Below are positions 1-12,153 of a DNA stretch of 12,153 bases, piece by piece. A program made the translations under genes and the position numbers. Source of the DNA: Candidatus Cloacimonadota bacterium. GTDB taxonomy: Bacteria; Cloacimonadota; Cloacimonadia; Cloacimonadales; JAIOQZ01. The stretch lies in contig JAIOTM010000190.1 of the NCBI GenBank assembly GCA_021106755.1, positions 1 to 12,153 of the forward strand, in the 5' to 3' direction. The notes beneath the pieces were generated by a model. That model was given only the letters and a program-made list of their open reading frames with translations, was not told where the DNA came from and did not search any database. Numbering within the stretch: the stretch's first letter is position 1; each line of letters begins with the position of its first letter.

Positions 1-1
1 A

Positions 2-751
2 GGGAAAATTCTGACTCAAATCGCCAGATACTTTTTTGAGCGAACCGGGCACTTGCTACCCAACCATCTTATCAGTTGCGACATTGACGAATTCCCTCAG
101 GAACTGCAACCATTCCGAGCCGAACTGCAAGACAGAAGCATGTTGGTAAAAAAAACCCGAGTACTACCTTTCGAGTGCATAGCACGAGGCTATATTACAG
201 GATCAGCCTGGAAAGAATTTACTTCATCGGGAACGGTACACGGAAAGTCGATGCCTCCTGATTTACAGGAAAGCCAACGCTTCCCGGAGCCAATTTTCAC
301 TCCTTCCACTAAAGCCGAAGAAGGACACGATATAAATATCTCGTTTGAAGTAATGAACGAGCGCATGGACGAACATCTGGCAAAACAGCTTCGGGATATA
401 ACTTTGAATTTGTTTGCTTTCACTTCCGATTTGTTGCGGGAGAAGGGAATCATTATCGCCGACACCAAGCTGGAATTTGGTTCGATAAACGGAGAAATCT
501 ATCTGATAGACGAGATTTTCACGCCGGATTCCTCCCGTTTCTGGGATGCGGATTCCTACTCACCGGGACGCTCGCAGGAAAGCTTTGACAAGCAGTTTGT
601 CCGCGATTATATTTCCTCGGTGGGTTGGGATAAAACACATCCCGCTCCGGTACTTTCCCCGGAAATTATCAAGAAAACATACGAACGCTACATAACAATA
701 TATAAAAGAATTGTAGGAAATGAGGCTCTCGAATGGGATACACCATTTTAG
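2..751 (+). CDS. purC: Phosphoribosylaminoimidazole-succinocarboxamide synthase (SAICAR synthetase), 5'-truncated by window
   Basis: PurC joins CAIR and aspartate, using ATP, to give SAICAR in de novo purine synthesis in the cytosol. The reading frame is open from base 2, and the residues before the TTG at 53 already match the family (GKILTQIARYFFE), so the gene begins upstream of the window and 53 is not its start. About 249 residues are visible, and perhaps 50-60 N-terminal residues are missing compared with the usual 290-310. Recognisable family blocks are PNHLIS, the ECIARGYITGSAWKEF block, FTPSTKAEEGHD, IADTKLEFG, LIDEIFTPDSSRFW, and the C-terminal KQFVRDY...GWDKTHPAP. The last 19 bases overlap the start of the receiver gene at 733, so the two are probably cotranscribed and translationally coupled. 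The identification is firm; the promoter and true start are outside the window. Confidence 0.96.
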   Translation, partial: GKILTQIARYFFERTGHLLPNHLISCDIDEFPQELQPFRAELQDRSMLVKKTRVLPFECIARGYITGSAWKEFTSSGTVHGKSMPPDLQESQRFPEPIFTPSTKAEEGHDINISFEVMNERMDEHLAKQLRDITLNLFAFTSDLLREKGIIIADTKLEFGSINGEIYLIDEIFTPDSSRFWDADSYSPGRSQESFDKQFVRDYISSVGWDKTHPAPVLSPEIIKKTYERYITIYKRIVGNEALEWDTPF

Positions 752-1128
752 TTGTCGATGATGAAGTAGATGTTACAGAGTTGCAGAAACTTGACCTCGA
801 AGACGAAGGTTTTGATGTAATCTGCGAAAACTCAGGTTACGACGCGCTCAAGCATATTATGGAAGACAAAATTGATTTGCTCTTAACCGATATAGCAATG
901 CAGGATATGGACGGCTATCAGCTTTACGCGAAAGTAATGGAACTGCGAGATGATGTTCCAGTAATAATGATGACAGGATTTGGCTATGACCCTAACCATG
1001 TGGTAGTTAAAGCCAAGAAAGACGGTTTACACGATGTTGTGTTCAAACCATTTGACACAGATAAGCTGGTCGAATTAATTAAAACCCGTCTGGATGGAGG
1101 GCGATGCAACATCGAAACAGACCATTAG
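733..1128 (+). CDS. Stand-alone CheY-like response regulator receiver protein
   Basis: A 131-residue protein consisting of one receiver domain and no output domain. The acidic pocket is D9-D10, the phospho-acceptor is D53 (in LLLTDIAMQDMDG), the switch threonine is T81 (IMMTG) and the conserved lysine is K105 (FKPF), so all key residues are intact and it should be phosphorylatable. It starts at ATG 733, inside the end of purC, with GAGG at 722-725 as a well-spaced ribosome binding site. Its own end overlaps the next gene by 25 bases. No histidine kinase is in the window, so its partner is unknown. Lone receivers act as phosphorelay intermediates or by binding partner proteins. The link to purC or to the downstream peptidase rests only on position. 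Confidence 0.93.
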   Translation: MGYTILVVDDEVDVTELQKLDLEDEGFDVICENSGYDALKHIMEDKIDLLLTDIAMQDMDGYQLYAKVMELRDDVPVIMMTGFGYDPNHVVVKAKKDGLHDVVFKPFDTDKLVELIKTRLDGGRCNIETDH

Positions 1129-2021
1129 TCTTCTGTTTCCTGCTTCTCACCGCCTATATCTTTTGCGGGGCACAGCCTCTTGAAATTACAGACGATTCGA
1201 TTACAATCCACTTTGATACTGGACATGAACGTTTTGTCCGACATATACTCCCCCTTTTTAAAAACGACAGGCTCGATTTTCTTAATCGGCTCGGTGTTTA
1301 TCCAGAAATCCCTGTTCAAATTAACATTGCCCCCAATAGAAATACATATCGTGAATGGACCGCCCAACCGGGTGGAATTATTGAGTATAGCAGTGGCTTT
1401 TATCATCCATCTTCTGGTACCATTTACCTAAGTCCGCCGGATGGACTGAAATCCGTAGAGAACATTCGCAGAATAATCCTTCACGAATACATCCATCACT
1501 TTGTCAATTATCTGTTCCCGGATGCACCGCTATGGTTTCATGAAGGCATGGCACAGTATTACTCTGAGGGCGTGGGCTATTTTCGCCTGTTCGGATTCGC
1601 GAAAGACTATTTTCTGGGAAATACGCAATCGCTACGAAATATGCGCAAGCATTATCCTCAGCATAAAGTGCAATGGTTTCCTTTCTATGTTAAGTCCGCC
1701 CTCGCGGTGCATTATATGGCAAGTCAGTTTCCCCGAAGATACAACTCTTTGTGGGACAGGGCACGAGTAGGGCAGTCATTTGAACCAGCTTTTATTCGTG
1801 CTTATATGATGCCGATTGCATCGTTTGAAGCAGGATTTGAAAGCTATCTGAAAAAGCGGGTACGAATTCAGATGCTCTTTTCAGCTTCATCCATTATTTG
1901 GGGATTCTTACCATTTCTCTTATTAATTGCATGGACTCGTAAAAAGATAAAAGGATACTACATCAAGAAAAGATGGGAATCTGAAGATTCGCGTGAAATA
2001 ATTGAAATAACTGATGATTAG
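1104..2021 (+). CDS. Exported membrane-anchored zinc metallopeptidase, peptidase MA-like (gluzincin)
   Basis: A 305-residue protein with a hydrophobic N-terminal signal segment (about residues 8-22, possible cleavage after the Ala in CGAQP). A central gluzincin-type active site follows: H127-E128-Y-I-H131, with E147 in the LWFHEGMAQY block as the likely third zinc ligand 16 residues later. A C-terminal transmembrane segment (about 258-277, ending in an aromatic- and Leu-rich stretch) is followed by a positive tail (RKKIKGYYIKKRW). This predicts a catalytic domain outside the cytoplasmic membrane with a short cytoplasmic tail. The HExxH...HEG arrangement fits the peptidase MA-like family; the substrate is unknown. 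The start at 1104 overlaps the receiver gene by 25 bases and has GGAGGG just upstream with rather short spacing. The stop at 2019-2021 overlaps the stop of convergent htpX. Confidence 0.85.
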   Translation: MQHRNRPLVFCFLLLTAYIFCGAQPLEITDDSITIHFDTGHERFVRHILPLFKNDRLDFLNRLGVYPEIPVQINIAPNRNTYREWTAQPGGIIEYSSGFYHPSSGTIYLSPPDGLKSVENIRRIILHEYIHHFVNYLFPDAPLWFHEGMAQYYSEGVGYFRLFGFAKDYFLGNTQSLRNMRKHYPQHKVQWFPFYVKSALAVHYMASQFPRRYNSLWDRARVGQSFEPAFIRAYMMPIASFEAGFESYLKKRVRIQMLFSASSIIWGFLPFLLLIAWTRKKIKGYYIKKRWESEDSREIIEITDD

Positions 2022-3235
2022 TGAGAAATAGCCTGCATGGTTCCACAACGCGGACATGTTATTTTGTCACCCTTGTAGTCGGGTGGAACCTTAATTTTTA
2101 AGCCGCAAGCACAATTAATAAACACGAAACCTGCCATTGAGCGAATAATATCTCCGGCAACCCGTGCCTTGTCTTTGTCTGAGAACGGTTGAGCTTTATC
2201 AACATCTCCGCCCTTTTTTGCCTGTATGAAATTGCTCTCTTTCAAAGCAGACTCAGGCAGTAAATCACCACCTTTCCCTTTGAGAATAAACTTATATGCC
2301 GACTGATATTCTGGCAAGCTGGCGTTACTTCCCATACTTCGCAGAATTTGAATCCGTTTCTCAATTGGCGGATGTGTACTGCTCAACTGAGTAAATGACT
2401 TGCCCTTAGCTATCCAGGGCGCGGAAATATACATTGGAGCAGTTACTTTGTTAGCTTTTTCCATAGGGATGTTAGAATGCGAAAGTTTCGCTAACGCGGA
2501 GGCTAGTCCTTCAGGATACCTTGTAAAGCGAACAGCCGTGGCATCCGCGAGATACTCCCGCTTACGTGAAATAGAGAAATAGAGAATCTGTGCCAGAATA
2601 GGTGCCAGGATTGCCATTACTATCGCGACAACCATCAAAATCAATCCAAGTTGACCGCTACTACTGGAGCTACGGGAGCTTCGGCGCCCACCAGAGAACC
2701 ATAAACCACGCAGAAAAAGCTCGGACATTAAAACTATCGCTCCCAGCATCACTCCGGCATAGGTCATATAGAGTATATCACGATTGTGAATATGAGCCAT
2801 TTCGTGAGCGATAACACCTTGCAGTTCGTCACGGTTGAGGGTAGCCAGTAACCCGGCTGTTACCGCAACGGTACTGTTTTCCGGTTTACGTCCCGTAGCA
2901 AAAGCGTTCATCGCTTTGGTGGGAATAACATAAATTCGGGGCATGGCGGGAAGTTGTGCCGCCAGTTTTATTTCCTCAACCACGTTATACAACATCGGTT
3001 GCTCGTGTCTGGTAACTTCCTTAGCACCACTAACTCCCAGCAAAAGCGCGTTACCCCCGGAAAAAGCTGACAACAACAGAATCAGCCAGATTACCACCGC
3101 CAGTATTACGCCAAAAAAGCCGCCTCCCGAATAGTAATATTCGGCAATAACATAGCCCATCGCGAGAAGCACTATGCCCATCATAAAGGTCAGCATTGCC
3201 GACTTTCGCTGATTAGCCCGAATGAGTTCCCACAT
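2018..3235 (-). CDS. htpX: HtpX-like M48 membrane zinc metalloprotease with extra C-terminal zinc ribbon
   Basis: HtpX-type proteases cut membrane proteins in quality control, with the active site facing the cytoplasm. Evidence: two N-terminal transmembrane segments (about 13-31 and 40-57), catalytic HEMAH at 144-148 (VIAHEMAHIHNRD), the third ligand E227 in SRKREYLAD, two further membrane segments (about 155-176 and 197-219), and the family block SSTHPPIEKRI at 285-295. A low-complexity Ser/Arg linker lies at 184-194. The protein is 405 residues, about 100 longer than usual. The extra C-terminus ends in a zinc ribbon with C375-x-C377 and C394-x2-C397. It starts 2 bases after the lemA stop, and no good ribosome binding site is seen, so it is probably translated by coupling to lemA. 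The lemA-htpX pairing is a common bacterial arrangement. Confidence 0.93.
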   Translation of the reverse strand: MWELIRANQRKSAMLTFMMGIVLLAMGYVIAEYYYSGGGFFGVILAVVIWLILLLSAFSGGNALLLGVSGAKEVTRHEQPMLYNVVEEIKLAAQLPAMPRIYVIPTKAMNAFATGRKPENSTVAVTAGLLATLNRDELQGVIAHEMAHIHNRDILYMTYAGVMLGAIVLMSELFLRGLWFSGGRRSSRSSSSSGQLGLILMVVAIVMAILAPILAQILYFSISRKREYLADATAVRFTRYPEGLASALAKLSHSNIPMEKANKVTAPMYISAPWIAKGKSFTQLSSTHPPIEKRIQILRSMGSNASLPEYQSAYKFILKGKGGDLLPESALKESNFIQAKKGGDVDKAQPFSDKDKARVAGDIIRSMAGFVFINCACGLKIKVPPDYKGDKITCPRCGTMQAISH

Positions 3236-3237
3236 AA

Positions 3238-3795
3238 TTACGAGAAATTAACCTTAGGTACTTCCCTCTCTTTTTCGTCCTGTATCTCAAAATACTCAGA
3301 TTGAGTAAAATTGAACATCCCGGCAATGATATTCGATGGAAACATTTGTATCTGGTTGTTTATAAAGAGTACAGCATCATTGTACGCTTGTCTGGAAAAG
3401 GCAATTTTGTTCTCGGTTGAGGTCAGCTCTTCCTGAATCTGCATGAAATTCACATTTGCTTTCAAATCGGGATAGTTTTCCACTACGAGAGAGAATTCAT
3501 TTAACGCGCGGCTCAGTTCCTGTTCGGCTTGGGATTTATCTCCCACAGTATTGGCTTTCTGGGCTTTGCCACGAGCTTGAGTAACACTATCCAGCGTTTC
3601 ACGCTCATGTTTCATGTAGCCTTTCGCAGTTTCGACTAAGTTTGGTATCAGATCGTGTCTGCGTTTAAGCTGCACATCTATCTGAGCCCAGGCGTTTTTT
3701 ACCTGATTGCGTAGTCTGACAAGTCGATTGTACATACCAACAATTACACCAACTACTATAATAAAAATTACGAGAATGATAATACCTGTCAACAT
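3238..3795 (-). CDS. lemA: LemA family membrane protein
   Basis: A 185-residue protein with one N-terminal transmembrane helix (about residues 3-22). It is followed by the LemA signature: LRNQVKNAWAQIDVQLKRRH, then DLIPNLVETAKGYMKHE and the helical remainder with the YNDAV block. This is the normal length and layout for LemA, which is expected to be an integral membrane protein with a long helical soluble domain. Its biochemical role is not established. The start at 3795 is supported by a strong ribosome binding site, AAGGAG (complement of 3801-3806), five bases upstream. It forms a two-gene unit with the HtpX-like protease immediately downstream, which suggests a shared envelope quality-control role. 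Confidence 0.94.
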   Translation of the reverse strand: MLTGIIILVIFIIVVGVIVGMYNRLVRLRNQVKNAWAQIDVQLKRRHDLIPNLVETAKGYMKHERETLDSVTQARGKAQKANTVGDKSQAEQELSRALNEFSLVVENYPDLKANVNFMQIQEELTSTENKIAFSRQAYNDAVLFINNQIQMFPSNIIAGMFNFTQSEYFEIQDEKEREVPKVNFS

Positions 3796-3891
3796 TTTAA
3801 CTCCTTTTTTTCTATTTCTTTAACCCAATGTGTTTTTTTTCCGGGTACCCGTTCGATACTCCCTGTAAGACTTTATTAGACACCATCTGTT

Positions 3892-4518
3892 TTACACTTC
3901 TTCGTTTACTTCCTTCAGCTTCTCCAGCACCAAATCTTTAACATCATAGTAGTCAAATCCCTGACGGTAGAGAGCAGTCATAATCTTATCAAATTTCTCG
4001 CTTTCCGGCAGTTGCCGAAACCTGCGAACAGCTTTACGGACAGCGTTTAAGCAAAGCTCGTTAACTGTCTCTCTGGTGAGAAAGCGGGCTATTGCCGACT
4101 CAATAATCGGCTCAGAGATACCTTTTTCATGCAACTTTCCCCGGATAACCACTTCCGGTTTTGCCTGACGCACCATTGCCGAGATAAACATCTCCGCGGC
4201 TCGCTCATCACTTACATAACGCATTTTCAATGCTTTTTGTAACAGCTTTTCGGCAATTTCTCCACTGGTTCTGTACCGGGTGAGATATTGTCGGCACTCT
4301 GCTTCGGTATGCTCCCGTCGGGCAAGGTAGTTCAATAATCTATCCCAGGTAAAGCTTTCAATCATTTGCTTTAACTCTGGCAATAACCGATTGTTTAATA
4401 CCTGCTCACCTTCACCAGAGATGTAAGGTTTTACCGATGACCGACTTACCACACCGATAATATGGTCATCTGCTTCGACAAAGAGCTGGGTTTTATTTCT
4501 CGGTTGTAGCCTTATCAT
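3892..4518 (-). CDS. recX: RecX, regulatory protein of RecA
   Basis: RecX binds RecA filaments and limits or reverses their growth. The 208-residue protein shows the three-helix repeat character of the family: [19 protein letters not shown] near residues 61-79, then [17 protein letters not shown] near 102-118 and the GKLHEKGI block, with a third repeat toward the C-terminus ([13 protein letters not shown]). The N-terminal [23 protein letters not shown] matches the short beta segment that opens RecX proteins, which supports the ATG at 4518. That start lies inside recA, with a 26-base overlap, and only AAGAAG abuts the ATG, so translational coupling to recA is likely. The recA-recX order is the classical one. 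Confidence 0.9.
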
Positions 4519-5530
4519 CTTCTTTTGGCAGGAGATTCAGTTCTTTGCGAATTTTATTCTCAATTTCCTGTTGAATTTCCGGGTTTTCCTGCATAAATAT
4601 TTTAACCTTCTCGCCGCCCTGTCCTAAACGAGTATCACCATAGGAATACCAAGAGCCGCTCTTACCAACAATATCGAACTTAACGCCCAAATCCAGCAAG
4701 ATATCCAGGTGCGAAATGCCAACTCCGAAAATAATCGGAAATTCTACCGTTTTGAACGGAGGCGCAAACTTATTCTTCACGATTTTCACTCGTGTGTTTT
4801 TACCAGATATATCCGTACTGCCACCAGCGTCTTTTATCGAACCCGCGGCACGTATTTCCAGTCGAACAGAAGAATAAAACTTCAAGGCAACGCCGCCAGT
4901 TGTTGTTTCAGGGTTCACATAAGGTGGAGCACCAATTTTCATGCGAATCTGGTTGATAAATATTACAGCAGTATTGGATTTACTCACAATACTTGTAAGT
5001 TTACGCAACGCCTGAGACATAAGCCGTGCCTGAAGACCAACATGGATGTCCCCCATCTCACCTTCAATCTCCTGACGGGGAACCAGAGCCGCAACCGAGT
5101 CTATAATTATCAAATCAAGGGCGTTGCTACGCACTAAGGTTTCCACGATTTCCAGAGCTTGCTCTCCTCCATCGGGCTGAGACAGTAGCAGGCTGTCGGT
5201 ATCAACTCCGATTTTGCCAGCATATATCGGGTCTAACGCGTGTTCCGCGTCGATGAAAGCTACTACACCATTCTGCTTTTGAGCCTGTGCCGCGATATGC
5301 AGAGTGAGAGTGGTTTTTCCCGAAGCTTCCGCCCCATAAACCTCTGTAATCCTACCTCTGGGAATTCCACCTATTCCCAAAGCTGAATCGAGGTTTAACG
5401 CGCCTGTAGGAATGATATCCACAGTAAGATTAGGTTTATCTCCAAGTCGCATAATAGAACCGGCACCATATTTTTTTTCTATCTGTCCCATTGCGGTTTT
5501 AAGTGCAGATTCTTTACTTTTATCAGCCAT
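4493..5530 (-). CDS. recA: RecA recombinase, with atypical P-loop and loop L2
   Basis: RecA forms ATP-dependent filaments on single-stranded DNA for homologous recombination and SOS signalling. The chosen start is ATG 5530 (345 residues): AAGGAGG (complement of 5537-5543) sits six bases upstream of it, but directly against the in-frame ATG at 5536, which is too close. With this start the numbering equals E. coli RecA up to loop L2. Seen: P-loop G66-A-E-A-S-G-K72-T73, catalytic E96 in [17 protein letters not shown] Walker B-like strand, NQIRMKIG before L2, and NPETTTGG after it. Two oddities: Ala at position 67, where most RecAs have Pro, and L2 reading G200-A-P-P-Y-V-N with one extra residue and no exact equivalent of F203. 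The short charged tail is normal. The start overlaps thpR by 8 bases; recX overlaps the end. Confidence 0.98.
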
Positions 5531-6092
5531 TGTCATCCTCCTTATATCCTTTTAATTCATATTGTTGTAGTAAGTGATAAACCGGACCATCGGGTTTTAG
5601 TTTGCTCTCAAATAATCCGACAGTGTCAATTATTGTATTTTGCTTTGGCATGTCGAGTGAGATTATCTTCCCAAAGGGGATATTCTCCGCGTTGCTTCTG
5701 ACCCGACCCAGAGTAACGTGCAGTTTCAGTGGCTTTGTTTCCAGACCCAGCTTGGGAAACGCGTTTCGGATACTACCTGGCAGGGAGAAAATTTTCCTTA
5801 CATTAGTGCGATACCGAACCCAGATAATTCGGGGTTCCCTTGCCGGAATAGTTTCAATTATGGGAGAATTTATCGTGAAAGGTTGCAAGCCACCAAATAT
5901 TTTCGAGAAAACTCTATCCATTTGCTTCAACTGGCTACGCTCAATATCTCCAAGAAACAGAAGCGTTATATGCAGGTTCTCTTCCCGCACCCACTTAATC
6001 CCTTTAGGTACAAGGTTTTTACCTTTATCAATCAGTTGCGATAACTCTTCCCTGATATTGTCGGGAAGCTGAAAAGCCAGAAAAGCTCGCAA
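5523..6092 (-). CDS. thpR: RNA 2',3'-cyclic phosphodiesterase, 2H phosphoesterase superfamily
   Basis: ThpR (formerly LigT) hydrolyses 2',3'-cyclic phosphodiester ends of RNA to 2'-phosphomonoesters. The 189-residue protein has the two catalytic HxT motifs of the 2H superfamily: H41-I-T43 (in HITLLFLGD) and H125-V-T127 (in HVTLGRVR). It opens with the usual RAFLAFQLP strand. The start codon is TTG at 6092-6090, supported by AAAGG about six bases upstream and by the homology beginning right at this point. It follows the adenosine-specific kinase stop by 3 bases and overlaps the true recA start by 8 bases. A thpR-recA neighbourhood is common in bacteria, often with cinA upstream; here an adenosine-specific kinase takes that place. 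Confidence 0.92.
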
Positions 6093-6095
6093 TTT

Positions 6096-6578
6096 TTACC
6101 TTTTGTAGCCGATTTTCTTTAGAAAATCCGTGCGCCAGGTAGCATCTTTAGGAGTCTCAATTCCGTAGGGACCGCTACCATCAATTACACCAAGTACACC
6201 ACGCCCCTGCTCTGTCTCTGCCAGAATAACCTGCACGGGATTAGAAGTCGCGCAGAAAATATTCACGATTTCCCGAACATCCCGCAAGGCGGGAATAATA
6301 TTGATTGGGAACATATCCCGCATAACAATTAAAAAGGTATGCCCCGCTCCCAGCCGCATCTGATTTTCTGCTGCCAGTTTAATAAGCTCTTCATCGGTGC
6401 CATCTTTGCGTACTAAACGGGGTCCCGATGCTTCGTTAAAGGCTATCCCGAATTTCGCGCCCGGAACTGTATTGACTATTGCCTCGTAAATATCTTCTAC
6501 AGTCTTGATGAAATGGGACATCCCGTAGATAAGGTTCAGTTCTTCCGCTAACTGGATTCTCTCAATTTTCAGTTCCAT
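6096..6578 (-). CDS. Adenosine-specific kinase family protein (COG1839, DUF355)
   Basis: A 160-residue protein matching the adenosine-specific kinase family known mainly from archaea and some deep-branching bacteria. Members are reported to bind or phosphorylate adenosine, but the physiological role is poorly defined. Recognisable blocks are KFGIAFNEASGPRLVR (42-57), GAGHTFLIVMRD (77-88), FCATSNPVQVILAE (108-121) and GRGVLGVIDG (125-134). The frame stays open upstream to an ATG at 6710, but 6578 is chosen for four reasons: family homology starts there, GAGGAG lies just upstream, a promoter (6610-6638) lies inside the longer version, and the upstream ATG falls beside the rpmB terminator hairpin. 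It is first in the operon with thpR, recA and recX. A salvage role linked to purine supply or RNA ends is only inference. Confidence 0.87.
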   Translation of the reverse strand: MELKIERIQLAEELNLIYGMSHFIKTVEDIYEAIVNTVPGAKFGIAFNEASGPRLVRKDGTDEELIKLAAENQMRLGAGHTFLIVMRDMFPINIIPALRDVREIVNIFCATSNPVQVILAETEQGRGVLGVIDGSGPYGIETPKDATWRTDFLKKIGYKR

Positions 6579-6609
6579 AAGCTCCTCTTGTGATACGTGC
6601 TTTTTTGTT

Positions 6610-6638
6610 ATTATTATCCTGCGTGCTTCTTTCGTCAA
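6610..6638 (-). promoter_or_regulatory. Sigma70-like promoter of the adenosine-kinase/thpR/recA/recX operon
   Basis: On the minus strand, TTGACG (complement of 6633-6638) is followed after 17 bases by AATAAT (complement of 6610-6615). Each hexamer differs from consensus at one position. Transcription should begin near 6603, about 25 bases before the ATG at 6578. I saw no clear LexA-type palindrome over or next to it, so SOS control of recA is not evident from sequence. Confidence 0.65.
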
Positions 6639-6680
6639 GAGAGTTTTTTCAATTATTCGGGGTATTTTCGCAGAAAGCAG

Positions 6681-6706
6681 AAAAGCACCCCTTACGAGGT
6701 GCTTTT
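6681..6706 (-). terminator. Rho-independent terminator of rpmB
   Basis: A perfect 9-bp inverted repeat, AAAAGCACC (6681-6689) and GGTGCTTTT (6698-6706), encloses an 8-base loop. On the minus strand the hairpin starts 20 bases after the rpmB stop, and the 3' arm ends in TTTT followed by CTGCTTTCTG. It separates rpmB from the recA operon promoter just downstream. Confidence 0.75.
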
Positions 6707-6725
6707 GCATAGCTATAAAACTGGA

Positions 6726-6917
6726 TTATACTATCTTTTTAACCTTATTGGCTTTGAGACAGGAAGTACAGATATTTATCTTCTGCACTTTGCCGTTAAA
6801 ATCGGCACGAATCTTTTGCAGGTTCGGCTGAAAACGGCGCTTTGTAGCGTTCATCGCGTGGCTCCGGTGGTTTCCTACCTGAGCTTCCTTACCACATACA
6901 TCACATCTTCTCGACAT
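6726..6917 (-). CDS. rpmB: 50S ribosomal protein L28, zinc-binding form
   Basis: L28 is a small protein of the large ribosomal subunit. The 63-residue product shows the family start [14 protein letters not shown], the basic [14 protein letters not shown] block (23-36) and the end [14 protein letters not shown]5, C8, C50 and C53 form two CxxC pairs, so this is the cysteine-containing form expected to bind zinc, not the cysteine-free paralogue some bacteria make under zinc limitation. The start at 6917 has AGAAGG upstream (complement of about 6922-6928). The gene is a single unit ended by the hairpin at 6681-6706. No other ribosomal gene is next to it. The upstream hypothetical gene ends 117 bases away in the same direction. 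Confidence 0.96.
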
Positions 6918-7034
6918 AATAACCTTCTTTGTCCGTTATCGGCTCAATATTATTTCATGCCCAATAATCAATAGCCCTTATATCTGGCAAGAAATTTATT
7001 GAAGTATATCGCTTTTTCGTTGCAGGGAAAAAGG

Positions 7035-7433
7035 TTAGCCTATCGCAGTCTGCTGACGGAGATAGCGGCGTTCCAACCGGATAGCAAGTTTCATCTCGGT
7101 TTCGCTCAAACCAGCAATGTCCAGACCACACCGAACAGCCTCGCTGAAAAGTTGCGATAACCGCTGTGTTCTTGTTCCCGAAACAGCACTCAAATCATCC
7201 TCAACGCACAACCGTTCGCCATGTTCATCCACAATGTCTATTTCCGCGTATTTCTGCTCTAAATACATCGCCATATCAGTTGGAAGAAGATGTACATAGC
7301 CTCTTAGAAAAAGCAGACTCAGCACATGCGGTTGAGTCGCCGGACGCAGACGAGCCATCTCGTCTGCATTTACTGTCACCTGAATAAAGTCTTCAACACC
7401 GGACTTAACGCATACTCGCCATAATCTTTGCAT
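7035..7433 (-). CDS. Hypothetical protein, unrecognised family
   Basis: A 132-residue protein I do not recognise. It appears soluble, with no signal peptide or membrane segment. The first half looks alpha/beta (FIQVTVNADEMARL, then VLSLLFLRGYVHLLPTD) and contains an acidic patch (IDIVDEHGERLCVEDD, about 70-85). The C-terminal third looks helical, ending in a basic stretch (KLAIRLERRYLRQQ). Support for a real gene: GGAG (complement of 7439-7442) sits five bases before the ATG at 7433, base composition is like the neighbouring housekeeping genes, and no competing frame in 7018-7668 has a clear product. It lies upstream of rpmB in the same direction and divergent from the ATPase cassette. Function unknown; it could be a lineage-specific protein. 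Confidence 0.6.
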   Translation of the reverse strand: MQRLWRVCVKSGVEDFIQVTVNADEMARLRPATQPHVLSLLFLRGYVHLLPTDMAMYLEQKYAEIDIVDEHGERLCVEDDLSAVSGTRTQRLSQLFSEAVRCGLDIAGLSETEMKLAIRLERRYLRQQTAIG

Positions 7434-7668
7434 TTCATCTCCATGTCATTCGTAATCAATCTTCAATAATAATGCAAAGCTGGTGCCACAGAGAGGAGAA
7501 GAAGTAGTAACTCCTTTTTACCCATAGTATATGAGGTTAGCGGTTTTGAGAGTGAGGCTGATATTTTGATAAGTAGGGAACTATTTTCCTGTTAATCTAC
7601 GTACATAGAAAAGATTTGTTGACCTGAACTCCGAAACACGCATACATGACAATACTATAGGAGCAAAA
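7434..7668. other. Divergent intergenic region at the left edge of the accessory cassette
   Basis: 235 bases between the minus-strand hypothetical gene and the plus-strand ATPase gene, with no coding sequence or RNA gene I can support. The plus-strand ribosome binding site AGGAG is at 7659-7663, five bases before ATG 7669. A TTGACC at 7619-7624 could be a -35 element, but the -10 partner 17 bases on (ATACAT) is poor, so a promoter is only tentative. This is where base composition shifts from the housekeeping block to the AT-richer cassette. Confidence 0.5.
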
Positions 7669-9009
7669 ATGTTAAAACGTGTTCAAGTAAAGAATTACAG
7701 ATGTCTGAAATATGTTGATGTTGAACTCGACAATTTTAATGTGCTGGTAGGACCTAACGCCAGTGGAAAATCCACGTTGCTGGATGCTATCCAGTTTTGC
7801 AGCGATTTTGTAAAAGATGGTCTGGAAAAAGCTATAGCTAAACGAGCAACTTCTTTGCAGGATCTGTTTTTTAATAGAGAAGGTGATAGTTTTGAGATTC
7901 TAATTGAATATGAATTCCCAAAAATAGAATTCACTCATTACATAAAGGATAGGTATACAAGTGATAAAAATGCTTTTTTAAAATTATACGAAAGAAAAAA
8001 CACGCCTTTATCGACAGATGATGAAGCTAAATCTAAGTTATCAAATGCTGATTATAATATCATCCGTTATGAGATTTCAATCAAGTACAATAACAAGCTA
8101 AACAAAAACACAATAAACTTTGAGAGATTGCTAATTGCAAAGCCAGAATGGATAAAAAATAATAGACATTGTGAACCACCAAAAATAAATTTTTCTGAGT
8201 CAGGGAATGTCTTAGTTTTGTTCAAAAAAAATGATGATAGAAATTTTGTTAGTTTCAGTTCCAATATTGGCAGGAATTTATCAAGTCACCCAAAATTGAC
8301 TTCTGACGCTTTTTCAACAGAGATGTTCCTAAAATCTGAATTCAATGTGGATGAAATCTTTGAGTCAGTGCATTTTTTGTTTCTAAAGCAGTTACTCGTT
8401 TCGGACATAAAATCTTTAAATCTAATTGGAAATGTCCTGAAAACAAGTTCTCAATCCGGGCAAGGATTATCAATTCTTCCAGACGGCTCCAACCTACCGT
8501 GGGTTATTGATAATCTAAAAACTAAACATAAGAAGAAATTCGATGAATGGCTGGAACATCTGCAAACTTCTTTACCAGATCTTACCGATATTACAGTTCA
8601 CGAAAACCCGGAAACCCTAAGCAAGTTTTTACAGATACATTATAACAATGTGGCTGTCAACTCGTGGCTAGTATCTGATGGTACAATGCGACTTTTGGCT
8701 CTTACACTGCTTGCATATATACCGGATTTCAGGGGCATACTGATGATAGAAGAGCCAGAAAATGGTATCCATCCTCAGGCATTGGAAACTATTTTTCAGT
8801 CGCTTTCATCAGTTTACAATGCACAGGTAATGCTGGCAACTCATTCTCCGATAATTGTTGGTAGTGCGAAATCTGAGCAGATTCTGTGTTTCAGTAAAGA
8901 TGAAGATGGAGGTACAAAGGTTGTTCGTGGTTCAGACCACCCCGCTTTGAAAGAATGGAAAGGACATATTGATGTAAGTACTTTGTTTGCATCCGGGGTA
9001 CTCGGATGA
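7669..9009 (+). CDS. OLD/RecF-like AAA family ATPase, first gene of a two-gene cassette
   Basis: A 446-residue ABC-type ATPase of the AAA_15/AAA_21, RecF/OLD-like group. The N-terminus has the typical VKNYRCL...VELDNFNVLVG lead into Walker A G28-PNASGKS35. The middle (about 60-300) is a divergent, very AT-rich region likely to hold the coiled or lid part. The C-terminal half has the signature-like SDGTMRLLAL (336-345), Walker B ILMIEEPENGIHP (357-369) and the THSP switch (391-394). It ends in DVSTLFASGVLG, with no TOPRIM domain fused on, unlike OLD or GajA proteins. The next gene starts inside the stop codon (ATGA at 9006-9009) and encodes a TOPRIM-like protein. The likely role is an ATP-driven sensor or regulator of that partner in defence or a similar conflict. 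The ATPase class is firm; the biological role is inferred. Confidence 0.9.
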   Translation: MLKRVQVKNYRCLKYVDVELDNFNVLVGPNASGKSTLLDAIQFCSDFVKDGLEKAIAKRATSLQDLFFNREGDSFEILIEYEFPKIEFTHYIKDRYTSDKNAFLKLYERKNTPLSTDDEAKSKLSNADYNIIRYEISIKYNNKLNKNTINFERLLIAKPEWIKNNRHCEPPKINFSESGNVLVLFKKNDDRNFVSFSSNIGRNLSSHPKLTSDAFSTEMFLKSEFNVDEIFESVHFLFLKQLLVSDIKSLNLIGNVLKTSSQSGQGLSILPDGSNLPWVIDNLKTKHKKKFDEWLEHLQTSLPDLTDITVHENPETLSKFLQIHYNNVAVNSWLVSDGTMRLLALTLLAYIPDFRGILMIEEPENGIHPQALETIFQSLSSVYNAQVMLATHSPIIVGSAKSEQILCFSKDEDGGTKVVRGSDHPALKEWKGHIDVSTLFASGVLG

Positions 9010-9623
9010 AAGACATCTATTTTGTATTTGCTGACAGAGATATTGAATACACAATTATCACTTTGCTGAAAGAAAGATGCAATAGTCTTGGAATAAGACC
9101 AATCTCATATGACAAATTCAAATATGGACTTAAAGATTCTGGATGCTTGAAGCTATCAGTCAATATTCTCAGACCTAAACTCAATAAATACCATCATGCT
9201 CTTGTCATTTTAGACCGAGATGGATGTGGCAAAGAATCAATGGAAGCTGTTGAAATTGAGACAGAATTAGAAAATGAGCTACAGAAGAATGGCTGGGACT
9301 CAAACAATGCAAAGGTGATTGTAATTGATCCAGAACTCGAAGCCTGGATTTGGAATGGCAGTGATGAATTGCCAAAAGTTCTTGATTGGTCAGGCAATTA
9401 CAAAAGCATTGAAAAATTTCTTGTTACTGAGGAAATACTCAATCCCGGACAGATTAAACCTGATGATCCTAAAACGGCTTTCAGAGCAGTTCTGAGAAAA
9501 TGTCAGGTTCCTCATTCCTCCAGAATATATAGAAAAATTGCAGAGAAAGTTTCTCTCAGTACTTGCACAGACCGCTCTTTCAATAAATTCAAAGAGACAC
9601 TAACCAACTGGTTTTCCGAATAA
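9006..9623 (+). CDS. TOPRIM-like (DUF4276-like) protein, partner of the upstream ATPase
   Basis: A 205-residue soluble protein. It has TOPRIM-type acidic motifs: an early glutamate in ADRDIEY (E14), a strand ending in D70-R-D72-GCG (ALVILDRDGCG), and a later acidic cluster in VIVIDPELEAW (D108, E110, E112). The last resembles the PElEaW motif of DUF4276 proteins. A C-terminal helical part (about 150-203) follows. The gene overlaps the ATPase by 4 bases (ATGA), a strong sign of obligate coexpression. From memory, some relatives of this ATPase-linked family are named as methylation-associated defence (MAD4-like) proteins in public annotation; I cannot verify this here. The acidic set could support metal-dependent nuclease activity, but that is inference. 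The gene ends 57 bases before a convergent gene. Confidence 0.75.
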   Translation: MKDIYFVFADRDIEYTIITLLKERCNSLGIRPISYDKFKYGLKDSGCLKLSVNILRPKLNKYHHALVILDRDGCGKESMEAVEIETELENELQKNGWDSNNAKVIVIDPELEAWIWNGSDELPKVLDWSGNYKSIEKFLVTEEILNPGQIKPDDPKTAFRAVLRKCQVPHSSRIYRKIAEKVSLSTCTDRSFNKFKETLTNWFSE

Positions 9624-9635
9624 ACAAATAGTTTT

Positions 9636-9681
9636 GAGGCCAATGTCTTTTTCTACTTTATTGTACTGATTTATTGACCTC
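9636..9681. repeat. Imperfect inverted repeat between convergent genes, possible weak terminator
   Basis: GAGGCCAATG (9636-9645) pairs with TATTGACCTC (9672-9681) across a 26-base AT-rich loop. Read as minus-strand RNA it gives nine pairs including one G-U. It fills the gap between the stops of the TOPRIM-like gene (9623) and the pRiA4b-like gene (9681). The loop is long and the T-run after either arm is weak, so a terminator role is uncertain. Confidence 0.3.
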
Positions 9682-10226
9682 TATTCATTTAGTAGTTCGT
9701 TTACTTCATTAACATCAAACTCTTCGGGGTCATACTCTTCTCCCCACCATTCGATTAACTCTGAATATTCTTCTGTTCCATGATTTTTTACAACTTCGCA
9801 AAAATGTGAATATCCTGGAGGACCACCACAATCTTCCGGCGGGCAAGCTCTGGCTCCATCTACACAGACAATCGGAAACTTCTGCTTTGGGTCAATATCC
9901 TGAATCTTTTTAAGAGTTATTTCGTGATACCAGTCATCTCCAAAATCATACCAGTAAATGAATTTATTACCTGCTTTTCTCAGAAAATCTGATAGTTTTG
10001 GATTTTTCATCCCTCCAGTATCCTCTAATCCGACTGGTGTACCAGTAATTCGAGTTTTCTTGTTAAACTGAAATTCATACATATGATTATTATCCCACCC
10101 CATCACACTCTGGATTATAATGTGCAGATAGTGTAATGGTATGTTTGTCGGAACTATAAAACTTCTCCATATATCGGGACTGATTCGCATAAGTTTGATG
10201 CGAAGAAGATAGTTATTTTTTGCCAT
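9681..10226 (-). CDS. pRiA4b ORF-3-like family protein
   Basis: A 181-residue soluble protein of the plasmid pRiA4b ORF-3-like family (PF07929). Landmarks are the N-terminal LLRIKLMRISPDIWRSF strand region, LHYLHIIIQSVMGWDNNHMYEF (31-52), the hallmark YDFGDDWYHEI (93-103), CPPEDCGGPPGY (128-139), and an acidic C-terminal tail. The family has no established biochemical function and is often carried on plasmids or next to transposons. The start at 10226 has AGGAG (complement of 10232-10236) five bases upstream. It lies 18 bases after the gpmA stop in the same direction, so it may be read from the gpmA transcript. No transposase is visible nearby. It sits at the right edge of the accessory segment and may have arrived with the ATPase cassette or on its own. 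Confidence 0.87.
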   Translation of the reverse strand: MAKNNYLLRIKLMRISPDIWRSFIVPTNIPLHYLHIIIQSVMGWDNNHMYEFQFNKKTRITGTPVGLEDTGGMKNPKLSDFLRKAGNKFIYWYDFGDDWYHEITLKKIQDIDPKQKFPIVCVDGARACPPEDCGGPPGYSHFCEVVKNHGTEEYSELIEWWGEEYDPEEFDVNEVNELLNE

Positions 10227-10244
10227 TTCTACTCCTATTATTGA

Positions 10245-10991
10245 TCATTTCGCTTTCCCCTGATTTTTCACTTTATCCATAGCGGCTTTGATTGAGTCCT
10301 CATCTGCCAGATAATAGCTTTTGATTGGTTTCAGGTTTTCGTCCAACTCGTATATCAGTGGAATTCCTGTGGGAATATTCAGACTGACAATCTCCTCGTC
10401 CAGGACATTATCAAGATATTTCACTAACGCCCGCAGACTGTTGCCGTGGGCGGCAACGAGAACTCGCTTTCCTTCAAGAATCGATTTAGAGATAACTTCG
10501 TGCCAGTAAGGCAACATACGCTCAACGGTAAGCTTGAGGCTTTCCGTTTTAGGTAGCTCAGTCTCCGAAAGCGATGAATAACGGGGGTCTTTCCCCGGGT
10601 AGCGGTCGTCGGTAACTTCCAGTTCCGGGGGTGGAATATCGTAGCTGCGACGCCAGATATGCACCTGCTCCTCGCCTACTTTCTTCGCCATTTCGGATTT
10701 ATTGTATCCTTGTAAATCGCCGTAATGACGTTCGTTCAACCGATAGTCACGAATAACCGGAATCCACATCAGGTCTAACTCATCAAGAGTAATCCAGAGA
10801 GTACGGATTGCCCTTTTCAAAACGGACGTATATGCCATATCGAAACAAAAGCCTTGCTCCCGCAAGGATTTCCCTGCCTGATGAGCTTCGACAATACCTT
10901 TCTCGGATAAATCCACATCAGTCCAGCCGGTGAAGCGGTTTTTCATGTTCCAGACACTTTCGCCATGCCGCAGTAAAACAAGCTTATACAT
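10245..10991 (-). CDS. gpmA: 2,3-bisphosphoglycerate-dependent phosphoglycerate mutase
   Basis: This enzyme interconverts 3- and 2-phosphoglycerate in glycolysis and gluconeogenesis. The 248-residue protein has the phosphohistidine motif LLRHGES with H9, the substrate-binding block [15 protein letters not shown] (18-32), the catalytic E87 in [12 protein letters not shown], and the second histidine H182 in [16 protein letters not shown]. Length and motif order are normal for the cofactor-dependent type, with no sign of decay. AGAGAGG (complement of about 10997-11003) precedes ATG 10991 and overlaps the stop of the tricorn gene, which ends 10 bases upstream, so the two are probably one operon. 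The linkage to a tricorn protease has no obvious metabolic logic. Confidence 0.96.
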
Positions 10992-11001
10992 GTTTACCTC
11001 T

Positions 11002-12153
11002 CTATTTCTTCGGAATCTTTGGTAGCGACAAATTTGGTCGTTTGTCGAACTTAGGCTTTACAACCGGATTCTTCTTCATCTCATTTAACACAACTGATAG
11101 AGCTTTGTCGAGTTGAGGATCGCGCCGGGCAACATAATCCTGTGGGGTCATGTCAACTTCGATATCAGGATCGGTGCCGTAGTTTTCCACTCCCCAGCCA
11201 ACATCTTTGAACCAGAACGAGTACTCAGGCTGAGTTGTCATACTGCCATCCGCGAAAGAGTACTGTCCGTTTATGCCGATTACTCCGCCCCAGGTGCGTT
11301 TGCCGATTAGCTTACCAATTTTCATCAGCTTAAACGAGTGGCTGAAGATGTCGCCATCCGAACCCGCGTACTCGTTAGTAACAGCGACAATAGGTCCGGC
11401 AACAGTATCTGAAGGATATGTCTCTGGAGTTTTCGACCATCGTGTAATATCATAACCAATTGTACGCCGGGCAAGTTTCTCTAACAAAAGCTGAGATACA
11501 TGTCCGCCACCATTATAGCGAACATCCACAATGAGTGCGTCATAACGGTTTTCCACCAACCAATAGCGATGAAACTCCGCGTAGCCCCGCTTTCCCATAT
11601 CCGGGATATGGACATAGCCAATTTTACCTTTCCCTTTTTCGTGAACATAGCGTCGGTTGTTTTCGACCCAGTTGCGGTATAAGAGTTTACCTTCAAGTTT
11701 CAGAGTCTTTACCGCTACATCGCGGGTTTTCCGTTTGCCACTCTCGCGAACAGTAAGGGTAATTTCCTGTCCACCAAGATTGAGCAACAACTCCCTCGGA
11801 TGCTTTTCAGCATTAACCAATTCACCATTGATAGCAATCAGATGAGTGCCTTCGGAAATCCCTGCTCCCGCTCGCAACAAGGGTGAGGTTTCGTTTGTAT
11901 CGGTAGCGTCTCCATAGAGAATTTTCTCTATTATCCAGTATTTACCCGAAGGTGCTGACTTGTATGTACAGCCTAACTTACCCATGCTGAAACTTCCGTG
12001 CGGTCTGTAGTCTCCACCAAACTCGTAGCAATGGGAAGTTCCCAACTCTCCCTGCATCTCCCAGATAAGGTCGGAATATTCACTACGACTACCAAGCCTG
12101 TCAAGTAATGGATAATAGCGCTTGTAAATCCGCTTCCAGTCTATCTTGCTCAT
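11002..12153 (-). CDS. Tricorn protease, C-terminal catalytic part (S41 family), truncated by window
   Basis: Tricorn is a very large cytosolic serine protease that trims peptides released by ATP-dependent proteases. The 383 residues here match its C-terminal half: a helical segment ([30 protein letters not shown]), a PDZ-like region (about 50-140), and the S41 core. Candidate catalytic residues are S40-H41 (GELGTSH), nucleophile S265 in YAGSDGD, and E323 in [13 protein letters not shown]. The [11 protein letters not shown] loop is at 210-220. The frame runs off the right end; the ATG at 12153-12151 is internal, because tricorn proteins are about 1,000 residues with beta-propeller domains before this point. 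A basic Pro/Lys tail closes the protein. It lies 10 bases upstream of gpmA. Confidence 0.92.

Follow-up and report, generated by a model that had tools for sequence, protein, structure and literature searches.

A probable free-standing MAD3/MAD4-like cassette, encoding an OLD-type ABC ATPase and, separately, a TOPRIM-fold protein, in a Candidatus Cloacimonadota genome

Several described systems bring together an ABC ATPase and a TOPRIM domain, either fused in one protein, as in OLD proteins and Gabija GajA, or encoded by separate genes, as in PARIS (AriA-AriB). MADS also appears among the ABC-ATPase plus Toprim systems in the portion of PMC12409363 available to us, and HEC is given as Hma-embedded candidate in the accessible part of PMC12988326. 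TOPRIM-linked OLD-ABC modules within BREX and BREX-related systems have already been described in PMC12839542, which does not use the term MADS in the sections consulted. Here, a gene pair from a Candidatus Cloacimonadota bacterium is analyzed in a stretch of 12,153 nucleotides (contig JAIOTM010000190.1, positions 1 to 12,153; referred to as the window). It comprises a gene for a MAD3-like, OLD/Rad50-type ABC ATPase (7669..9009, 446 aa) and a gene for a MAD4-family TOPRIM-fold protein (9006..9623, 205 aa), both on the plus strand, as are all features below unless stated otherwise. Family matches, motifs, a TOPRIM-like fold, nearly constant pairing, a variable insert, patchy distribution and low G+C content together suggest that the pair is probably a free-standing MAD3/MAD4-like (HEC-01-like) cassette, in which the TOPRIM-fold partner of an OLD-type ABC ATPase is encoded separately.

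Profile searches matched the small protein to the full NCBIfam MAD4 model (NF047734) with 197.7 bits, above the cut-off of 160. The ATPase gave a full-length match to MAD3 (NF047739) with 388.4 bits and is referred to as MAD3-like because this lies below the curated cut-off of 420. In PADLOC, the best model for the ATPase was HEC-01A (PDLC04182, 174.2 bits), followed by mad3 (137.5 bits), while the small protein matched mad4 with 30 bits. By sequence, the pair is thus assigned to a described kind, for which MAD4, MAD3 and HEC-01A family models already exist. The initial annotation had recognized a split OLD-type cassette, which holds for the separate ATPase and TOPRIM-fold genes, but had also taken it for another architecture, which is not new in view of these models and of the available part of PMC12409363.

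Comparison with the individual systems revealed both shared and differing features. As in MADS, whose MAD3 and MAD4 models aligned full length to the window pair, the ATPase gene precedes the small gene; the difference lies in the ATPase score below the MAD3 cut-off, and no credible further MADS gene was found by PADLOC among ten window neighbors, the rest of the 81%-complete genome not having been searched for them. HEC-01 is linked to the pair by the top PADLOC match of the ATPase and by relatives located in Hma-like loci, whereas the HEC-01B match of the small protein is weak (22.9 bits, E 1.7e-5) and the ten neighbors contained no Hma genes according to PADLOC. PARIS likewise has its ABC ATPase and TOPRIM in separate genes, and AriA models match the window ATPase with 107.4 and 100.2 bits, but for the small protein PADLOC, which presumably contains AriB models, listed the mad4 and HEC-01B models only. 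Class 1 and class 2 OLD proteins and GajA share the ATPase head and TOPRIM fold, but these are fused there and divided between two overlapping open reading frames (ORFs) here; moreover, no GajB match was obtained with PADLOC among the ten neighbors, and the next gene downstream is PRiA4_ORF3-like. Some similarity extends to DUF4276 and RloB, matched at E ≤ 1 by 14 (best 1.4e-4) and two (best 6.5e-4) of 29 MAD4 relatives, respectively; a precomputed label assigns PF14103 (DUF4276) to the window small protein, for which the profile searches returned no Pfam family at E ≤ 1. The OLD-ABC modules described in the consulted part of PMC12839542 resemble the pair as backup modules embedded in BREX or DUF1156 systems, whereas the window pair is not embedded.

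Both ORFs lie where the initial annotation had placed them, joined by a 4-nt ATGA start-stop overlap (9006..9009) that suggests translational coupling, and a GGAG sequence 5 nt ahead of the first ATG (7660..7663) is the likely ribosome-binding site of the ATPase gene. The pair is flanked on both sides by minus-strand genes, and its G+C content is 36% compared with 45% in the flanks used. The source draft genome amounts to 2.33 Mb in 459 contigs, with the pair on the contig numbered C278.

To place the pair among its relatives, species-representative contigs were scanned with the motif [IV]VIDPELE, and the best 80 of 121 confirmed loci were used. MAD3 lies upstream of MAD4 in 79 of these 80 loci, in 63 by a strict script rule and in 16 as read by eye, most of the latter having a MAD4 frame that is open further upstream; in the exception, L060, the sequence starts 220 bases ahead of the MAD4 frame. 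The 4-nt overlap is possible in 53 of the 79 pairs, and the NCBIfam MAD3 cut-off was passed in 17 of 20 genomes of related loci. A second draw took 294 genomes of the phylum to which L038 belongs (labeled Planctomycetota), where MAD3 was detected in 14 genomes (E ≤ 1e-95) and MAD4 in 16 (E ≤ 0.001), all 14 MAD3 genomes carrying an adjacent MAD4; at least two of these 14 loci (in G107, the genome of L038, and in G167, matching L081) were already among the 80, which makes this draw partly dependent on the first. A strict threshold had to be applied to MAD3 because, at E ≤ 0.001, its model also matched 11 of 14 control genomes, in no case above the cut-off; the MAD4 model matched in none of the 14. 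The two MAD4 matches outside the 14 genomes were a 22-bit fragment (G150) and a locus with just a 58-aa MAD3-like match upstream, which looks decayed (G305). Co-occurrence of the two families, as anticipated by the initial annotation, is therefore nearly constant. Their distribution is patchy, MAD4 having been found, among 98 related genomes searched, in the window's own genome and in none of the other 97.

Two loci depart from the regular arrangement. In L003 (7109-9993), MAD3 is present as N- and C-terminal pieces around a 524-aa ORF (7584-9155), which may be an inserted element and has no PADLOC match at 1e-30. In L088 (6566-8137), the MAD4 match lacks its first 27 residues and is preceded by a 58-aa MAD3-like match, giving the locus a decayed appearance.

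The ATPase retains the full set of motifs read from it initially, with key residues identical in 75/75 sequences of an alignment of 74 of the 80 loci plus the window (A2; L003, L006, L031, L034 and L063 were omitted as partial, and L060 lacks the gene). These motifs are Walker A, GPNASGKS at residues 28-35 (7750..7773; G28, N30, G33 and K34), the ABC signature SDGT at residues 336-339 (8674..8685; S336 and G338), the Walker B glutamates at residues 361-364 (8749..8760; E361, E362 and E364) and the THSP motif at residues 391-394 (8839..8850; H392). The closest fold matches are the heads of SMC, Rad50, PtuA and OLD, and the protein carries no fused nuclease domain, as had been proposed. Between the conserved parts lies an insert at residues 85-235 (7921..8373) with a mean conservation of 0.34, compared with 0.69 and 0.68 to its two sides. 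Its predicted local confidence (pLDDT) is about 51-73 in most blocks and 87-94 at residues 131-160, and this variable region is a candidate sensor.

The assignment of the 205-aa protein to TOPRIM folds was borne out by structure prediction. Its AlphaFold model is confident (pLDDT 94.7) and TOPRIM-like; its best solved match is the TOPRIM domain of an OLD nuclease. Both Foldseek rows at E ≤ 0.001 correspond to the Burkholderia OLD TOPRIM domain, and OLD TOPRIM domains account for five of the six highest-ranking VIA entries, with one Xanthomonas protein contributing three. In the accessible part of PMC6755086, Burkholderia OLD is reported to use E400, E404, D455, D457, T506, E508 and K562, which include acidic metal ligands and a lysine. 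Conservation in the small protein was followed in an alignment of 75 of the 80 loci plus the window (A3; L010, L051, L060 and L067 were omitted as partial and L054 for an in-frame stop) and in 29 database proteins collected without use of the DPELE motif (A1). In L054 (10001-10603), the stop interrupts the MAD4 frame about 26 codons short of the match end.

Of the TOPRIM glutamate and DxD elements, the window protein has D70-R-D72 (9213..9221) and, after strand 1, D10 (9033..9035), which occupies approximately the expected place of the canonical glutamate and may be its equivalent. D10 is aspartate in 72/76 sequences of A3 and in 23/29 of A1, where four have gaps; E14 is glutamate in 45/76 (A3). 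D44 after strand 2 (9135..9137), D70 and K151 in the helical part (9456..9458) are invariant in both samples (76/76 and 29/29). The initial reading of a D70/D72 motif holds for its first member only, since position 72 in A3 contains D in 9, E in 41, H in 10, A in 6 and other residues in 10 of 76 sequences, compared with aspartate in 22/29 of A1; conservation of D72 thus varies with the sample, and DxD is no fixed feature of the family. D108-P-E110-L-E112 follows strand 4 (9327..9341), and its acids are conserved in A1 (D108 27/29, E110 29/29, E112 28/29), whereas their 76/76 in A3 arises by construction, as the genome scan used that motif; the full scan motif is absent from 5/29 proteins of A1. 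Judged by their positions after strands 2, 3 and 4, the conserved acids would sit at the place of a TOPRIM metal site.

With respect to genomic context, 17 of the 80 loci lie in or near defense-type genes by our own reading, and 63 have no recognized system in the DNA at hand; untraced PADLOC matches (e.g., PDC-S13 and PDC-S14) and many short contigs mean that 17 may be an under- or overcount. BREX genes surround the pair in L028 (BrxC-pair-PglX) and L082 (PglX-pair-PglZ) and adjoin it in L073 (BrxL). Hma/DUF1156-type contexts were assigned to L022, L038, L040, L046, L052 and L063, with L038 and L063 scoring far under the NCBIfam cut-offs for DUF1156 and DUF499 and L046 assigned by clustering with L038. 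Type III-like contexts comprise L014, L029, L044, L045 and L065, of which L045 and L065 were assigned solely by clustering with an L029 protein that is itself far below cut-off; the clustered protein of L065 has no PADLOC match at 1e-30. L079 is MADS-like, with a mad5 match downstream and, upstream, a methyltransferase whose best PADLOC model is type II and second-best mad2. L072 has a IIG enzyme 2.9 kb from the pair, and L061 a DpdE/ZorD-like helicase. In L063, MAD4 (215 bits, residues 3-202) shares a single 1218-aa frame (451-4107) with a DUF1156-like methyltransferase, whose DPPY motif is located at residue 813. A similar gene of L040 aligns with residues 228-1112 of this frame, and the gene that follows the frame in L063 belongs to a DUF499/HmaC-like cluster. 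Beyond MAD3 and MAD4, the next most recurrent neighbor cluster occurs in 6 of the 80 loci.

Counts of neighboring genes lend modest support to the proposed enrichment near defense genes, so that claim is upheld in part. Genes with an amino-methyltransferase motif make up 15/277 within 4 kb of the pair versus 3/210 beyond (one-sided p 0.016), and those also having a second motif 11/277 versus 2/210 (p 0.034), the 4-kb boundary having been chosen after the bins were seen; near-copies (L047, L055 and L056) and genes below 250 aa were omitted, which leaves the L063 fusion uncounted. At 1e-30, the nearest genes, in sets of 66 and 65, matched 61 and 67 PADLOC families, respectively, versus 27 for 131 distant ones, figures that count families rather than genes and include distant matches that may belong to the same systems. 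These sets omit L055, L056 and genes below 150 aa; the distant set is a random draw of at most four per locus restricted to 900 aa or less, and since the near set has no upper size, large defense genes are favored in it.

A quickly built 71-row tree required 5, 5 and 3 changes for the five Hma/BR, five type III and three BREX rows, respectively, which is the maximum possible and no fewer than with shuffled labels; when only well-supported branches are counted, 4, 3 and 3 changes are still forced. This scatter fits repeated docking of the pair into different systems, with small groups, rough labels and many open forks. The window forms a long branch, and the smallest supported set around it comprises L030, L043 and L047, none with a recognized host system.

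The likeliest mode of action, by analogy, is PARIS-like, with the ATPase as sensor and the TOPRIM protein as effector. The two proteins would form a complex in which the ATPase would restrain its partner and use the variable insert to sense invasion; in response to a phage or plasmid signal, the TOPRIM protein would be released or activated and would then cut nucleic acid, either host tRNA, the target in PARIS, or DNA, the target in OLD and Gabija, halting the infection. This route is preferred because the split gene arrangement matches and because of the AriA-AriB precedent in the available part of PMC12409363. Among the alternatives, the main rival is a Gabija-like route, in which ATPase and TOPRIM would build a DNA-cutting machine comparable to GajA or Mre11-Rad50 that cuts phage DNA directly without shutting down the host. 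The nearest folds would suit such a machine, SMC, Rad50, PtuA and OLD heads for the ATPase and OLD-family DNA nucleases for its partner, yet the genes show the split arrangement of PARIS and not a fusion, the pair is not followed by a helicase gene and the second aspartate of DxD is unconserved, making this a rather doubtful option.

Less likely still is an accessory role in methylation systems, in which the pair would be inactive alone and would, for instance, recognize unmodified DNA on behalf of a trans-acting methyltransferase. The BREX, Hma-like, MADS-like and type III-like contexts and the MAD4/DUF1156-like methyltransferase fusion would agree with such a role, as would five matches to the N6/N4 methyltransferase family in the window's genome, but all five are on contigs other than the window's, and the 63 loci whose available DNA holds no recognized system speak against dependence. 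A housekeeping or cell-cycle function like that of the archaeal OLD protein Cran1 is very improbable: OLD proteins can be non-defensive, as stated in the accessible part of PMC12796447, and most related loci have no recognized defense neighbors, whereas the absence from 97 other related genomes, the occurrence in 14 of 294 genomes of the second draw, the low G+C content here and the repeated embedding of relatives in defense operons all argue against such a function.

A broader reading, offered tentatively, is that MAD3/MAD4 represents a portable, mostly solitary guard that entered BREX, Hma-like, MADS-like and type III-like systems in independent docking events, in one case becoming fused to a methyltransferase. 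MADS would then consist of a restriction-like core plus this guard, whose effector would represent a TOPRIM subtype of its own, with its metal site on D44, E110 and their neighbors instead of the second DxD aspartate. The main points of interest are the pair standing alone, its recurrence beside different methylation systems and its TOPRIM residues. If the pair protects alone, MADS would become a core with a separable PARIS-like guard; finding one module next to several methylation-based systems would point to a common answer to restriction-blocking phages, and the altered site would bear on which residues this nuclease fold truly requires.

Around the pair, Pfam identified a SAICAR synthetase, a response regulator, an adenosine-specific kinase, a histidine phosphatase and an S41 peptidase, and by our reading of the ORF list alone the neighbors also include RecA, RecX, HtpX and a 2'-5' ligase-like protein. 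PADLOC revealed no credible defense gene among the ten neighbors; the one match, a weak one to mad8 (20.5 bits, residues 58-147), falls on the gene read as recA and probably reflects a shared P-loop. A 132-aa ORF on the minus strand (7035-7433) has no Pfam or PADLOC match at E ≤ 0.001. On the other side, the pair is adjoined by a minus-strand pRiA4b ORF-3-like gene (9681..10226; PF07929, 188 bits), which at 37% G+C was possibly acquired together with it.
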